From a virus, in IMG/VR virus record IMGVR_UViG_3300030101_003804, positions 1 to 29,130 of that record: 29,130 nucleotides of DNA; one strand, written 5' to 3'. A program made the translations under genes and the position numbers. Numbering within the stretch: position 1 is the stretch's first letter; each line of letters opens with the position of its first letter. Under the pieces are notes generated by a model. The model worked only from the letters and a program-made list of their open reading frames with translations, made no database searches and was not told the DNA's origin. Below are positions 995-19,289 of the stretch, one piece after another.

Positions 995-1102
995 ATGACT
1001 CCTGAAGCAGAAAGGTTTAACGGTTGGGCAGCAATGCTTGGTTTTGTAGCAGCATTAGGTGCATACGCAACTACTGGCAACATAATTCCCGGTATATTCT
1101 AA
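995..1102 (+). CDS. hli: High-light-inducible protein, copy 1 (35 aa)
   Basis: Single-helix chlorophyll-binding (HLIP) protein thought to protect photosystem II and chlorophyll carriers under stress. It is almost only the HLIP core: an E-R-F-N-G-W-A-A-M-L-G-F motif at residues 6-17 (Glu and Asn ligate chlorophyll), one membrane helix, and the cyanophage-type C-terminus TTGNIIPGIF. At 35 aa it is very short, with only five residues before the motif Glu. Its TAA overlaps the next ATG (TAATG at 1100-1104), so translation of copies 1 and 2 is probably coupled. The upstream TATAAATA box may drive the cluster. Confidence 0.93.
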   Translation: MTPEAERFNGWAAMLGFVAALGAYATTGNIIPGIF

Positions 1103-1215
1103 TGAGCAATTTAGATATCTTCACAAAGGCACAGGGACGTGCAGCAATGATGGGCTTTATCGCAATCCTTGGTGTATATGCTGTCACAGGTACACTATTA
1201 CCAGGTATTGTCTAA
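1102..1215 (+). CDS. hli: High-light-inducible protein, copy 2 (37 aa)
   Basis: HLIP-type single-helix protein, the most divergent of the four. The motif reads A-Q-G-R-A-A-M-M-G-F, so the usual Glu-x-x-Asn-Gly signature is replaced by Lys-Ala-Gln-Gly; the helix and the TGTLLPGIV ending are kept. Loss of the acidic and Asn chlorophyll ligands may mean altered pigment binding or action only as a heterodimer partner (inference). The start ATG overlaps the stop of copy 1, and its stop overlaps the start of copy 3 (TAATG at 1213-1217). A longer reading from 1024 in the same frame runs through copy 1 and is not credible. Confidence 0.88.
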   Translation: MSNLDIFTKAQGRAAMMGFIAILGVYAVTGTLLPGIV

Positions 1216-1370
1216 TGGCAAAAGCAATAGCAATTTCAATTACACGTAAGCAACCTGAAAGAGAAAAGGTAGTAGCAGAACGTATTAACGGATATGCAGC
1301 CATGATTGGCTGTATTGCAGCTATCGGAGCGTGGACAACTACTGGTCAAATCATTCCCGGTATTTTTTAA
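1215..1370 (+). CDS. hli: High-light-inducible protein, copy 3 (51 aa)
   Basis: HLIP with a basic N-terminal leader of about 20 residues, then the motif A-E-R-I-N-G-Y-A-A-M-I-G and the ending TTTGQIIPGIF. Glu and Asn of the chlorophyll-binding motif are present. Expected to insert as one helix in thylakoid membranes and bind chlorophyll and carotenoid as a dimer. The start overlaps the stop of copy 2 by one base. Copy 4 starts two bases after its stop. Confidence 0.93.
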   Translation: MAKAIAISITRKQPEREKVVAERINGYAAMIGCIAAIGAWTTTGQIIPGIF

Positions 1371-1372
1371 TT

Positions 1373-1564
1373 ATGACAAGAGTAACTGAAAGTGGTGGTA
1401 GACAGAATATTTATGCCACTGAACCTCCTATGATTGTAGATTCCAATTACACTAACTATCCTGAAGAGGCTGAGAAAGCTAATGGTCGTTGGGCTATGTT
1501 AGGTTTCATAGCTTTAATAGGAGCTTACACATCTACTGGACAAGTCATACCCGGCATCTGGTAA
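1373..1564 (+). CDS. hli: High-light-inducible protein, copy 4 (63 aa)
   Basis: Longest HLIP of the cluster. A polar N-terminal region of about 33 residues precedes the motif E-K-A-N-G-R-W-A-M-L-G-F and the ending TGQVIPGIW. The motif has the canonical Asn-Gly-Arg-x-Ala-Met form, closest to host HLIPs. The ATG at 1373 was chosen over an in-frame ATG at 1331 because the latter lies within copy 3 and only adds residues encoded by that gene's HLIP core. The gene is followed by a terminator. The four copies differ in N-terminal length and motif detail, suggesting specialised partners. Confidence 0.93.
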   Translation: MTRVTESGGRQNIYATEPPMIVDSNYTNYPEEAEKANGRWAMLGFIALIGAYTSTGQVIPGIW

Positions 1565-5300: not shown

Positions 5301-5529
5301 TAGTGCTTATAGAAGTGATCCGTTTGCAGCCTTTGGTGCTGTTAGCCAGTTAGCAGGTGATGCTGGAGGTATTTTCGGAAGCCAAAATCAGAAAGAGGAT
5401 CAAGAAGATGAAAAAGAAAGTAGCTATTTTACGTTTGACGTGGATTATGATGAAGATGAGGATTATAAATCCCAGAAAGGAAAAGAGATACTTGGACAGT
5501 TCACAAAAGGTTTCTCAAGTTTTATTTAA
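2323..5529 (+). CDS. Very large acidic protein, probable virion component (1068 aa)
   Basis: No known domain recognised. The protein is long, highly charged and strongly acidic at both ends (runs of D/E near residues 95-105, 155-160 and 1020-1055), rich in Lys, Glu, Asp, Tyr and Asn, with long predicted helical and coiled-coil stretches (for example 205-245, 670-740). It has no signal peptide or membrane helix, and cysteine is absent or nearly so. A Gly/Ala/Phe-rich patch near residues 985-1015 could be a hydrophobic anchor. Size, composition and position ahead of a small basic protein and the lysozyme fit an internal or baseplate/tail-associated virion protein (inference). Enzymatic roles cannot be excluded. 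It is in the same rightward run as the HNH gene. Confidence 0.7.
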   Translation: MSSATLNRGNRNVLKRKSESSVKKSLEDYEKALEETKDDAAGLTTRNYLTFNEDTGQLEYSMPEDFNEDQFPEDLPVKVGEPRAYQLFNLSQYTYEDSDDNEQTGLDVKIGDVVISDTPPEGDYVDITGILDNRYAYKYKQMMKAIDDYAYERYGYDDDEEGKQIRGARYGDSLFKVYRPKNHYKSENFFMSTSGRRLKDDTVKGQLLIARDNANIDNKYNKQKNEAAKKINDFNRKYNKEKAVKQQVYDDAIQVSTQTKGADYTDQRDKIRAIKKLEEAGLSAADSKKILSDVENTFKDFYRSEKLEEFDFGYGTELGYANTKGKPLYGNFDSKYYKGQTLANQNLTEQEKWQDAVDADDIDITERFGGEDGYYLWRYGQQRGAGEVRGNAADSLDEAEKYVEKKPTDVEMQFYRDKMLGIEEDDPEQLINDISYIKDAYEEAKVAKAAGTSNRFVDAAGTYLNVDNPDEFLLVFQQSANEQDQAAFDELKRGGLYITELEDAITGVVGEEALLQTKKFGALTQNVLTDTFDELRRAKAKEQELALMGQFSTFGEIMDVNKSLSDSLLGDSGIGGYLPFMGKDSGFDSKNLEKQLSGVTGINNNVVYNWQQWFDDSIKKNYSEFEDDYLELGYTTEEAEEAAKQQVNIQKSFAESYITDYLKPRFDESRSMNEFVEYLDVRQEEQNPFQTQSLLDAVNQVGKLQADTFLDKVRENSVDKKFDSEFYFNPIGAGDNPTLQGRYDQQRELVEDDWDKARNNPNEIADALNPGQGTWAELAYRYGADVNDKQQFAKLHYQVKGKNESYKFDPAEDVINAGKVKEHIYKEILPKLVEEAGNQPSIFGQFVKPDEYADDMLEGLDPNQPEEWNEALEAIGLSEFTGTRDELKDYISETFRTGSAADIRAQIKYLNEKREKPTQELLGVEYIQREEDYKTDATLKGDTQLFKVFQDAGYQGSEDEFYEKVFPDLDKSSQTLLTQVGDTGKINIKGLGGSAYRSDPFAAFGAVSQLAGDAGGIFGSQNQKEDQEDEKESSYFTFDVDYDEDEDYKSQKGKEILGQFTKGFSSFI

Positions 5530-5536
5530 TTAGAAG

Positions 5537-5836
5537 ATGGCAAGTAAACATAGAAAAGCAGCATCAGCCGCAAAACTTGCGAAAGATAAGATGGCGTGTA
5601 ATAAACCAAAAAGAACCCCTAAACATCCGACTAAATCGCATGTAGTGAAAGCATGTAAAGATGGTAAAGAAAAGATTATAAGATTTGGTCAACAAGGTGT
5701 AAAAGGAGCTGGTAAAAATCCTAAAACAGCAAAAGATAAAGCCCGTAAAAAGTCTTACTATGCCAGACATAATGCACAAGATGCAAATCCAGATAAATTC
5801 TCAGCTAGATATTGGTCTCATAAGGTGAAATGGTAA
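5537..5836 (+). CDS. Small highly basic conserved protein, DUF5872-like (99 aa)
   Basis: Lys/Arg-rich protein with an N-terminal basic arm and a conserved-looking block: K-S-H-V-V-K-A-C-K-D-G-K-E-K-I-I-R-F-G-Q-Q-G at about 34-55, then A-R-K-K-S-Y-Y-A-R-H-N and a C-terminal S-A-R-Y-W-S-H-K-V-K-W. This arrangement is shared by small proteins in many cyanophages and some large algal viruses; I associate it with DUF5872 from memory. The charge suggests nucleic-acid binding, possibly packaging with DNA, but no function is established. It starts 7 bases after the large acidic protein, so the acidic and basic products may be made together and interact (inference). Confidence 0.75.
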   Translation: MASKHRKAASAAKLAKDKMACNKPKRTPKHPTKSHVVKACKDGKEKIIRFGQQGVKGAGKNPKTAKDKARKKSYYARHNAQDANPDKFSARYWSHKVKW

Positions 5837-5877: not shown

Positions 5878-6552
5878 ATGGCCGATTACACTAAGGCAAT
5901 TAACTTAATTTGTAAATACGAAGGATATAATGAAAAAGCTTATCCAGATCCCTGTACTGGCGAGCATCCTTACACCTTTGGATATGGAACACAGTATTAT
6001 CCTGACGCAACACCAGTAAAACTAGGTCATCGGGTTACCAAACACAAAGCCTTGGAGTATTTAATATATGAAATTCATCTTATTGAAGAAGAATTAGATA
6101 CATTAAAACTACGTTTAGATAACAGCATGAAGAATGCCTTGGTATCTTTTATTCATTCCATAGGATGGAAACCTTTTTTATATAGTACAATTATTGATCA
6201 TTTAGAAGGACAAAGATATCACTGTGCAGCTGAAGAGATGAACAGATGGGTATATGACCAGAATCATAAGGCATTAGGACATTTACTTGAAAGGAGAAAG
6301 GAGGAGACAGATTTATTTATAGAGGAAGTTGATGTCAGTGAGGCTCCTTTTCCCGGTATCTTATTAATGGCAGCTAATAATTACCAAGGTCACCCTTCTC
6401 AGATAGAAGCTTTGATTAAATTAGAGAAAAAGATAAATCCTTATATTCTTAGTGCTTTTATGAATGAGTATGCTGATCATGCTAGAGAACTCTATCCTAA
6501 TGTAGTTTCTGACACATATTTAGAGAGAACCTATGGTGATTTTGATAGATAG
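5878..6552 (+). CDS. Endolysin, GH24 (T4-lysozyme-like) muramidase with C-terminal extension (224 aa)
   Basis: Cleaves the MurNAc-GlcNAc bond of peptidoglycan at the end of infection. The catalytic Glu-Asp-Thr set of the family is visible: E15 in KYEGY, D24 in YPDPCTG, and T33 in PYTFGYGT. The Glu-Asp spacing of nine equals that of T4 lysozyme. The muramidase domain covers about residues 1-145. A further 75-80 residues with no recognised domain (from about 147) end the protein and may bind cell wall or be virion-associated. There is no signal peptide, so release needs a holin; the holin-like gene is 22 kb downstream. The ATG at 5878 sits 41 bases after the previous gene. Confidence 0.88.
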   Translation: MADYTKAINLICKYEGYNEKAYPDPCTGEHPYTFGYGTQYYPDATPVKLGHRVTKHKALEYLIYEIHLIEEELDTLKLRLDNSMKNALVSFIHSIGWKPFLYSTIIDHLEGQRYHCAAEEMNRWVYDQNHKALGHLLERRKEETDLFIEEVDVSEAPFPGILLMAANNYQGHPSQIEALIKLEKKINPYILSAFMNEYADHARELYPNVVSDTYLERTYGDFDR

Positions 6553-6585: not shown

Positions 6586-6888
6586 ATGGAAAATTCAGTT
6601 GAACCTAAAGCATTTCAACTACCGTTAGAGCATCAGTTTTCTATGAAGAAAGCTGAGATAAAAGCGAAAGAGATGACATGGGATCAACTTTATGTTGCAT
6701 TGTTATCTTTATACCATCAGCGATTAATGGAAATCTATGCCCTCAAATCTATGATGGCAGAAGAAAATGTAGAGATTGACTTTGATGTCCCTACTGATGT
6801 TGAATTATTAGATTTAGCTACTAAAGCTCAGGAAGTTATAGATGAGGAATTAGATGAAGAAGATGGAGAAGAACCTCTAAGCATCTAA
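6586..6888 (+). CDS. nblA: NblA-like protein with acidic C-terminal tail (100 aa)
   Basis: Residues 11-57 follow the pattern of cyanobacterial NblA, the proteolysis adaptor that guides Clp protease to phycobilisomes: L-x-L-E-x-Q-F-S near the N-terminus, E at +5, K-E-M-T-x-x-Q in the middle, then L-L-S-L-Y-x-Q-R-L-M and L-K. NblA is normally about 60 aa and helical. Here the helical part is followed by some 40 residues ending in an acidic run (EELDEEDGEE). Divergent NblA homologues have been described in freshwater and, as I recall, marine cyanophages, so the call is plausible but rests on pattern reading only. If right, it would dismantle host antennae while psbA and hli genes keep photosystem II going. 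The 3' end overlaps the convergent DUF3310 gene by 12 bases. Confidence 0.55.
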   Translation: MENSVEPKAFQLPLEHQFSMKKAEIKAKEMTWDQLYVALLSLYHQRLMEIYALKSMMAEENVEIDFDVPTDVELLDLATKAQEVIDEELDEEDGEEPLSI

Positions 6889-7167
6889 ACCGATTAATTT
6901 ATTCAGATACCATCTAGCTTTCTTTAAAGACTCTTTGCCTCCTTTTGTACGTTCACGCCACATATATTTAGCTACGTTACCTTTTAAATAACCACGAAAC
7001 TCTTCTGGAGTCAGCTGTGCTTCTATCGCATCTATGCATTCTACAGAACTTGATGCATAGTGTATTGGTTTTTCTACAGGATCAAAGAAGTGTAAGGTAC
7101 CATCTGTCTCTGTAGTAGAGAACTGTGCAGGCATTGGGCAAAAATCATCAGTACACTCTTCTATCAC
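6877..7167 (-). CDS. DUF3310 family protein (96 aa, GTG start)
   Basis: The C-terminal two thirds match DUF3310, a small helical domain common in phages and sometimes labelled nucleotide-kinase-like without proof: K-P-I-H-Y-A-S, V-E-C-I-D-A-I-E-A-Q-L, F-R-G-Y-L-K-G-N-V-A-K-Y and R-W-Y-L-N-K-L-I. An ATG gives a longer frame from 7326, but its first 53 codons overlap the upstream gene. A GTG at 7165-7167 overlaps that gene's TGA (GTGA), the usual coupled arrangement, so I place the start there. The 3' end overlaps the convergent NblA-like gene by 12 bases. Function unknown; DUF3310 genes often sit among phage nucleotide and replication genes. Confidence 0.85.
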   Translation of the reverse strand: MIEECTDDFCPMPAQFSTTETDGTLHFFDPVEKPIHYASSSVECIDAIEAQLTPEEFRGYLKGNVAKYMWRERTKGGKESLKKARWYLNKLIGLDA

Positions 7168-7472
7168 TTCTTGTTTCCCGAATTCGGAGAGTCTAATACC
7201 ATTAAGAGGGTTTTGGGTTTTACTGATGCTCCCATTTTCATCCCCTCCTCCATGGATGGTATATATCCTGTCAATCCGGGCCTCTCTCTCTGACCCAGAT
7301 TCATTGCATTCATTCCTTGCTGGCATACTGCTAATCCTCGATTATACATATCATACAGAGGAAGATCATTATTTTCATTATCTATCGGAGCTCCAAAATC
7401 TTCTAGAGATAGAACTCTGCAGTTCATTTCATCTTTAACGAAATCCCCTAAGAATTTACTAGAACCAAGCAT
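7164..7472 (-). CDS. Hypothetical protein upstream of DUF3310 (102 aa)
   Basis: Not recognised. The N-terminal half is ordinary globular sequence (MLGSSKFLGDFVKDEMNC); the C-terminal half is rich in Met, Gly, Gln and Lys, without membrane segments. It was preferred over the long frame of the neighbour in the shared region because its stop (TGA) overlaps a GTG start of the DUF3310 gene. Its start lies 40 bases from the divergent gene at 7513, so two promoters must share or overlap a very short spacer, or the genes are read from farther away. Confidence 0.6.
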   Translation of the reverse strand: MLGSSKFLGDFVKDEMNCRVLSLEDFGAPIDNENNDLPLYDMYNRGLAVCQQGMNAMNLGQRERPGLTGYIPSMEEGMKMGASVKPKTLLMVLDSPNSGNKK

Positions 7473-15363: not shown

Positions 15364-15570
15364 GTGTTATTCAAAGTAATTAGTCTACATTTGGCTTTGC
15401 ATTTGAAAATAAGTCCTCTATTATGTGAATATATAGGTTCTTTATATGAATATCAGGAAGATAATCATAACCTACTACTCATTTTTAGAGACAACTCTAT
15501 GAAGGAGTTAGATGAAGCACCATCAGGTGCATGGACTCAACTTCGTAAGGAATTAAAAACACGCAGATGA
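15364..15570 (+). CDS. Small hypothetical protein, GTG start (68 aa)
   Basis: Not recognised. Starts at GTG; there is no in-frame ATG until residue 45. The first 30 residues are hydrophobic (Leu/Ile-rich) and could form an amphipathic or short membrane helix; the rest is charged. The stop overlaps the PsbN-like start (ATGA), so this ORF may serve as the translational lead-in. It follows a 106-base spacer after the fibre gene, which should hold any promoter for this block; no clear box was seen. Confidence 0.5.
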   Translation: MLFKVISLHLALHLKISPLLCEYIGSLYEYQEDNHNLLLIFRDNSMKELDEAPSGAWTQLRKELKTRR

Positions 15571-15794
15571 ATCTCATAAATTATTTTTTATCAAAACCAT
15601 CGGTCTATCTTCTTCCAGGGACATGGGAGAAACAGCCTTTAATACCACATGGGCACTATCTCGGATTACCTCCACAGGGACAATTGGTGGCTATCATATT
15701 AATGCTACTGACATTTGTCACTGGATACGGAATCTATCTAGCTTTCGGTCCAGCTAAAGAAAACTTAACTGATCCATGGGACCACGATGACTAA
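15567..15794 (+). CDS. psbN: PsbN homologue with N-terminal extension (75 aa)
   Basis: The C-terminal half (residues 38-75) reads like cyanobacterial PsbN (about 43 aa): one transmembrane helix (about 38-59) ending in V-T-G-Y-G-I-Y-L-A-F-G-P, then a polar tail E-N-L-T-D-P-W-D-H-D-D, matching the family's TG-Y-x-I-Y-x-x-FGP and DPF-E-E-H-E-D pattern. PsbN is needed for repair and early assembly of photosystem II reaction centres. Residues 1-37 are an addition, with an aromatic and Pro-rich stretch (WEKQPLIPHGHYLGLPP) that could face the cytoplasm. The ATG overlaps the previous stop by 4 bases, and its own stop overlaps the next gene by 8. Such a gene would fit psbA and hli in the same genome. 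Confidence 0.75.
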   Translation: MNLINYFLSKPSVYLLPGTWEKQPLIPHGHYLGLPPQGQLVAIILMLLTFVTGYGIYLAFGPAKENLTDPWDHDD

Positions 15795-17769: not shown

Positions 17770-18636
17770 TTAAGTTGTGAGACCTATACCCCTGAAGTTC
17801 TCCCAATCATCATCATTTAAATCATCATCTTCTTTGTTTATAGAGTAATTTATTGCTCCATCCACCATTTCTTCTGGACTGGTACTAGCTGCTACTTCTG
17901 CAGCTACCGTTTCTTCTACGATTGCATTATAGAGATTAGGATCAAAACCAGTCATACCTGATTCCTGTTTAACTTCCTTGGGAGTTTTCCAGAAGTAATC
18001 ATCAACCTCTCCTAATCTTCCCCATTTGGGTACATGCTCTACGTTAAAGTACCTGGTGGACACCTTGAAATCAGGTCTTTTCAGTTCATGGTTACTCAAG
18101 GAAGTATCTGTCATGCGACAACGATTGTTGGGATAGGCACCTATCTGTCCATTATCCAGCTCAATAATATTATGAGACTTATGTTCATCAGGTGATTCTG
18201 CAAAATAAAAATCAGGTTCATTTCTATGAGGATGATAGTTATCTATGGTAAATAAGTATGTACCTTTCATGATGCCGTTATCTCTGGTCATCACCTCGAA
18301 GTCCATATTAAATATAAGATTCTTCTCCACAACAGTAAGACCGGTGTCAAAACCATTCCAGAACTGTAGATCAGTTAAAGGTAGATCAGGTGTTGGTAAC
18401 TCAGGTTTATGAGGATGATCGGGGTCCCAAGATAAAAAGGCACTGATAGGAAGCTTGTCATATAAAGCCCCATATTCTGTGAGATAGGTTTCAAAATATA
18501 ATGCCCTGCCTGAAATGGATTTACATGTAACCCAATAACCTAGAGTATATTCTCCATGTCCATCACGTAAATCTCTTAAATATTCACGTCTTACCCAGAC
18601 TTTTGTAGGTGGTAAATTTGCTACTAAAGTTGTCAT
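17770..18636 (-). CDS. Conserved-looking cyanophage protein, unknown function (288 aa)
   Basis: No domain recognised. The N-terminal block (VWVRREYLRDLRDGHGEYTLGYWV, read in part as residues 13-36) and the following ALYFETYLTEYGALYDKLP look highly constrained, rich in aromatic and charged residues as in a folded beta protein. The C-terminal 80 residues are low-complexity and acidic (E/D/N-rich, ending near EDDDLNDDDWENF). No membrane segment. Similar starts (TTLVANLPP) occur in other marine phage proteins as I recall, without known role. Its ATG overlaps the methyltransferase stop by one base, so the two are probably coupled. Confidence 0.7.
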   Translation of the reverse strand: MTTLVANLPPTKVWVRREYLRDLRDGHGEYTLGYWVTCKSISGRALYFETYLTEYGALYDKLPISAFLSWDPDHPHKPELPTPDLPLTDLQFWNGFDTGLTVVEKNLIFNMDFEVMTRDNGIMKGTYLFTIDNYHPHRNEPDFYFAESPDEHKSHNIIELDNGQIGAYPNNRCRMTDTSLSNHELKRPDFKVSTRYFNVEHVPKWGRLGEVDDYFWKTPKEVKQESGMTGFDPNLYNAIVEETVAAEVAASTSPEEMVDGAINYSINKEDDDLNDDDWENFRGIGLTT

Positions 18637-19289
18637 TAATCAATCTCCTCCCAGATCCAACCGACTTGGTATCCATCTATGTATGGTGGGATACCCAAAG
18701 AATCCATCAATTCATAAATCATTCTTCCTTTTCCATGTTTTTGTTTACTTTTTTCTGATTCTGGTATGAATAAATTATCATCAACTACTATTAATGTTCC
18801 ATCTTTAATAACATTTTTAGCAGCAAATAATTCTTTTAAATGATGTGCAGAAGCTTTCCAATCATCTAACCAATTATAAATATTGTAGGAGTCTAAATAA
18901 AGTAAATCAACATTACCATCAAGTGTGGATAAAAACTCAATTGAATCACCTTCTATGACCTCGGCATAAGTTGTTAATCTCTCTGCAGTTTTACATGCTT
19001 TAGGATCTATATCTACCGTAATTAAGTTACCTCCTTGTGTTCCTATATAGTGATCAAATAAAACAGTGGAACAACCATCTCCTTCAAAATTATTTTCTTC
19101 ACGAACCGTTCCAGTCTCTACGATTACGGGGTCTTCTATTGTTTTTAAATATTCAAAGATTTTGGTAAAACCTATCTCCCTTAATCCTAGTAAAGGTTTA
19201 ATATCTTCATAATAGACGGACCAGTCTGGCATGGATAAAGTACAGTCCTTATTTATCTCTTTCTCTGTATTAATATTGTGCATATTCAT
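18636..19289 (-). CDS. Class I SAM-dependent methyltransferase (217 aa)
   Basis: Rossmann-type methyltransferase of the Methyltransf_24-like group. Motif I region at about 55-75 (VIVETGTVREENN, then GDGCSTVLFDHY), acidic motif II in LITVDIDPKA (about 90-99), a G-D-S-I-E-F-L segment and the D-L-L-Y-L-D-S-Y motif IV (about 128-135), then TLIVVDDN. The usual Gly-rich loop is replaced by T-G-T plus a short insertion, as in related sugar O-methyltransferase-like proteins. The substrate is unknown; sugar or small-molecule modification is more likely than DNA, given the absence of a DPPY or PC motif. Start and stop overlap both neighbours. Confidence 0.85.
   Translation of the reverse strand: MNMHNINTEKEINKDCTLSMPDWSVYYEDIKPLLGLREIGFTKIFEYLKTIEDPVIVETGTVREENNFEGDGCSTVLFDHYIGTQGGNLITVDIDPKACKTAERLTTYAEVIEGDSIEFLSTLDGNVDLLYLDSYNIYNWLDDWKASAHHLKELFAAKNVIKDGTLIVVDDNLFIPESEKSKQKHGKGRMIYELMDSLGIPPYIDGYQVGWIWEEID

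Follow-up and report, generated by a model that had tools for sequence, protein, structure and literature searches.

The S-EIV1 phage lineage carries, as a fixed gene, a divergent NblA-like gene that is almost certainly a true homolog of NblA, by which cyanobacteria mark their light-harvesting antennae for degradation. We describe the gene from the window, by which we mean the whole 29,130-nucleotide stretch of viral DNA analyzed here, and refer to its predicted product as the window protein. The gene, the parts of its product, and its two neighbors are as follows.

6586..6888 (+): NblA-like gene, an open frame with an ATG start, 100 aa
6616..6759 (+): NblA domain, residues 11-58, aligned to PF04485 positions 1-48 of 50; AlphaFold2 helices 14-28 and 32-59
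6760..6795 (+): conserved linker EENVEIDFDVPT, residues 59-70, defined from alignments; stands in place of the canonical C-terminal KHQWG
6796..6852 (+): extra predicted helix, residues 71-89 (AlphaFold2)
6820..6885 (+): acidic tail, residues 79-100, with hydrophobic residues at its end, defined by comparison of relatives
5878..6552 (+): phage lysozyme (PF00959, 71.5 bits), separated by a 33-bp gap from the NblA-like gene downstream
6877..7326 (-): convergent DUF3310 protein (PF11753, 66.2 bits), sharing 12 bases with the 3' end of the NblA-like gene

The NblA-like gene is the last in a same-strand run that includes the lysozyme gene, and this shared run, together with the 33-base spacing, suggests that the two may be co-transcribed late in infection. 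A promoter and terminator scan found nothing above chance.

Homology of the viral family to NblA

A sequence-only reading of this DNA had recognized an NblA pattern in the window protein and had named an NblA profile search beforehand as one test. PF04485 was the best Pfam match of the protein (E value, 0.0018; residues 11-58), although at 19.1 bits the match was below the curated cutoff of 25 bits, and a search of PHROGs found no family matching the protein. When a profile built only from Nostocales NblA sequences was used, the window protein scored 16.6 bits, whereas none of 20,000 shuffled sequences of equal composition exceeded 13.5 bits; the NblA-like frame ranked first among the 366 reading frames of the window. 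With a broader NblA profile the scores were 34.6 bits for the window protein and 15.5 bits for the top shuffle, a comparison that is partly circular because several members of that profile were retrieved via the viral profile. An accident of low-complexity acidic sequence was dismissed as the source of the match, since the match is confined to residues 11-58 and lies outside the tail.

The proposed pattern was borne out at the level of the family, where the score is secure even though the single protein is subthreshold. PF04485 matched all 12 of the relatives scanned. The viral relative G002 exceeded the cutoff (25.6 bits) and G005 was borderline (25.2 bits with its neighbors in frame and 24.2 bits as a protein), which, together with the 19.1 bits of the window protein, places the viral family at the edge of the PF04485 model. 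The top solved-structure match of the viral family profile was Anabaena NblA (1ojh; E value, 0.0016), and a profile-profile comparison of the viral family with cyanobacterial NblA gave a probability of 92.8% (E value, 3.8e-7). The viral profile also matched 121 of 388 cyanobacterial genomes, and each of the 20 loci fetched from these matches encoded a recognizable NblA with the motif LEQQF or LEQEF; PF04485 matched 278 of the same 388 genomes, and many of its places coincided with those of the viral profile.

The subthreshold single-protein score is what a chance likeness between two amphipathic helices, with no homology to NblA, might also produce. However, the window protein scored above all 20,000 shuffles, the viral family profile specifically reached cyanobacterial NblA genes, and one viral relative and one relative on a cellular contig exceeded the PF04485 cutoff. 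Chance likeness is thus strongly disfavored, and we give it next to no weight.

Predicted fold, conserved motifs, and acidic extension

When modeled as a single chain with AlphaFold2, the window protein was predicted to form helices at residues 14-28 and 32-59 (mean pLDDT, 79). The helices of an Anabaena-type NblA modeled with AlphaFold2 were at residues 9-22 and 27-55, and the boundaries in the two proteins coincide at an alignment offset of 5 residues. The single-chain prediction thus points to a two-helix hairpin core, and the match of its helices to the canonical model, followed by the acidic residues 59-100, agrees with the two-helix core and acidic extension proposed earlier. Foldseek searches of PDB and BFVD with the window model gave no NblA match, and a canonical NblA control model likewise missed 1ojh.

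The N-terminal motif L-x-L-E-x-Q-F is common to the viral family and canonical NblA, and L12, L14, E15, Q17, and F18 are conserved in alignments of both families. This conserved motif of NblA has been reported to bind ClpC, and to judge from the sequence the window protein would retain this binding motif. Contact of NblA with phycobiliproteins has been reported to occur via a motif near its C terminus. At L51, K53, and W56 (Anabaena numbering), which we take to be the phycobiliprotein-binding residues of NblA, the viral family has L or M at the first position, mostly A at the second, and no conservation at the third, and the window protein therefore appears to lack the canonical C-terminal binding region. 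The place of the canonical K-x-x-W is taken by a conserved stretch, EEN-x-x-D/E-F/W-D-x-P-T, and the linker residues E60, P69, and T70 were invariant in the alignments.

The extension is made up of this conserved linker, the predicted helix at residues 71-89, and a disordered acidic end. The earlier estimate of about 40 acidic C-terminal residues was accurate, since residues 59-100 contain 18 D/E and 1 K/R in 42 residues (pI 4.05). All 83 distinct full-length relatives have the third helix and the acidic tail; past residue 78, their tails are 16 to 28 aa long, with 37 to 55% D/E and hardly any K/R, and the majority terminate in PF, AI, or SI. Values of pN/pS from 0.07 to 0.35 over residues 1-78 indicate purifying selection, and because residues 59-78 are under such selection, as is the NblA part, the extension is likely functional. 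Most likely, it either replaces or modifies the canonical C-terminal phycobiliprotein contact or tunes the stability of the adaptor itself.

This arrangement could also belong to a retargeted ClpC adaptor, in which the N-terminal ClpC-docking half is kept and the new C-terminal part delivers some other substrate (a defense or regulatory protein of the host, or a different pigment protein) or acts to block ClpC. Such retargeting would fit the retention of L-x-L-E-x-Q-F with the loss of K-x-x-W and the presence, in place of the latter, of EEN-x-x-D/E-F/W-D-x-P-T and a helix under purifying selection, but the target-side sequence varies even among cyanobacterial NblA-like paralogues, and host phycobiliproteins may need a different contact. 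We consider retargeting a less likely alternative.

A fixed locus in the S-EIV1 lineage

Among 50,697 phage records, the sole relative of the window protein was a "hypothetical protein" of S-EIV1 (KJ410740, 73902-74222; 58% identity over residues 1-78; E value, 9e-25). This is the same gene as that of the window and has the same neighbors, with a lysozyme gene adjoining it there too, and its product differs in having a longer tail. A prophage of Synechococcus elongatus UTEX 3055 has been described as resembling S-EIV1 most closely (PMC9239245). At least 571 relatives were found at confirmed places in IMG/VR, from which we took a sample of 164 loci encoding 84 distinct proteins. In each of the 150 loci that extended far enough to show it, the lysozyme gene immediately preceded the NblA-like gene in the same orientation, and in all 143 testable loci the DUF3310 gene was convergent downstream, counts that describe the best-match loci as a sample. 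These constant neighbors demonstrate that the NblA-like gene is a fixed gene of the S-EIV1 phage lineage.

Its constant place behind the lysozyme gene, at the end of a plus-strand run that also includes a large late-type gene (1068 aa), is what would be expected if the product were a late lysis- or virion-related protein, descended from NblA but no longer acting on Clp or phycobilisomes. Such a role, which we regard as improbable, is opposed by the strictly conserved N-terminal motif of NblA and by the lack of matches to lysis or structural families in Pfam and PHROGs.

Comparison with other NblA proteins

The window protein shares with cyanobacterial NblA (Anabaena 1ojh) a 48-residue helix-loop-helix with the pattern L-x-L-E-x-Q-F ... 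M ... L-x-L-Y-x-Q and the same helix boundaries. Cyanobacterial NblA is about 60 aa long, whereas the window protein is 100 aa long, lacks the C-terminal K-x-x-W, and has in addition the linker, the third helix, and the acidic tail. Phage-borne NblA is also found in the freshwater phages Ma-LMM01, MaMV-DC, and PaV-LD. The Ma-LMM01 protein reportedly retains every highly conserved residue of NblA (PMC4103541), unlike the window protein, a distinction that is drawn from the published description.

Divergent phage NblA-like proteins, as in the window, occur in marine phages as well (cyanopodoviruses, S-TIM5, and S-SCSM1). A search with the S-EIV1-type profile did not find the S-SCSM1 and S-TIM5 NblA copies, and it gave only 3.9 bits for a podovirus-type copy (L284), so the S-EIV1-type proteins form a family separate from marine phage NblA. 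The L284 protein, on contig C3 of genome G413, scored 23.1 bits against PF04485, adjoins DNA-polymerase-like and MazG-like frames, and belongs to a family distinct from that of the window. According to PMC9602691, one metagenomic marine phage NblA is active in Synechococcus elongatus (Nadel 2019), and expression of other phage NblAs in cyanobacteria leads to a loss of phycobilin (citing Nadel 2019, Gao 2012, and Ou 2015). Since phage NblA is known and is reported there to be active, the class itself is not new; the tailed S-EIV1 type is a new form of it. In the literature searched (Nadel 2019 and Chenard 2015 lie outside that search), there appears to be no report of the S-EIV1-lineage family, of its fixed position, or of its conserved acidic module.

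NblA-like genes in likely hosts

We surveyed 201 genomes from one family of small-genome cyanobacteria, presumably Cyanobiaceae, in which PF04485 gave five matches, one of them over the cutoff. This one (L290; 26.5 bits with PF04485 and about 90 bits with the viral profile) is a 102-aa relative of the viral family with an acidic tail, encoded at 5402-5710 (-) of contig C41 in genome G473. Its contig carries cellular-type genes (rhomboid, trigger-factor-N, staphylococcal-nuclease, and PD-(D/E)XK), and a copy of this type was present in one of the eight genomes of the same genus. It is a cellular copy, a prophage remnant, or part of a misbinned contig. In a small tree the viral sequences group with this copy, with about 50 informative columns, which are too few to lean on. 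Recent capture of the viral gene from a host is unlikely, as only 1 of the 201 genomes has a strong match. A short divergent NblA-like protein, SLSLESNFELERIKRSIDAMDDLELL, found in three small cyanobacterial genomes (L285, L286, and L287), accounts for three of the other four matches and probably corresponds to the NblA-like gene of picocyanobacteria that the literature mentions; the fourth is the podovirus-type copy L284.

Photosystem genes in the window and in relatives

The sequence-only reading had also proposed that psbA, hli, and psbN act with the NblA-like gene, so that reaction centers would be kept while antennae are removed. The genes are indeed in the window: a 177-aa C-terminal part of psbA (PF00124), cut by the contig end; psbN (PF02468); and, by sequence, three small hli-like frames at 1024-1564 (+), which are tandem, overlapping or adjacent, and behind psbA. 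The combination itself fared poorly, as among 18 relative records three had psbA, two others had psbN, and none had both (although fragments can hide genes), and neither was found in the complete S-EIV1 genome. Because the NblA-like gene occurs without psbA or psbN in S-EIV1 and in several records of 45 to 95 kb, psbA and psbN are accessory, and their combination with it is not a conserved module.

The PsbN-like protein of the window (15567-15794, +; 75 aa; 40.5 bits with PF02468, over the cutoff) has an N-terminal extension, as do those of relatives G544 and G546, and falls in PHROG 8051, listed as "unknown function." A 217-aa protein encoded at 18636-19289 (-) matches PHROG 24975 (unknown function) with 178.9 bits.

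Proposed function and implications

We favor, with moderate confidence, an active, modified NblA-type Clp adaptor that acts on phycobilisomes. The window protein would be a helix-loop-helix proteolysis adaptor, probably dimerizing into the four-helix bundle of the NblA homodimer, whose conserved N-terminal motif would engage the host ClpC chaperone and which would thereby bring Clp protease to the phycobilisome. The resulting phycobilisome breakdown would release amino acids and reduce excess light absorption during infection, and expression would presumably be late, with that of the lysis and structural genes. It is conceivable, though less likely, that the lineage as a whole carries an NblA-built Clp adaptor whose substrate end has been swapped for a conserved acidic module and which sends ClpC to a target besides, or instead of, phycobilisomes.

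The above-described results provide a testable function for a "hypothetical" gene that is fixed across a widespread cyanophage lineage. They suggest that antenna removal via the host Clp protease is standard in infection by the S-EIV1 lineage and not an occasional acquisition, and the conserved acidic module offers a natural experiment in target selection by NblA.
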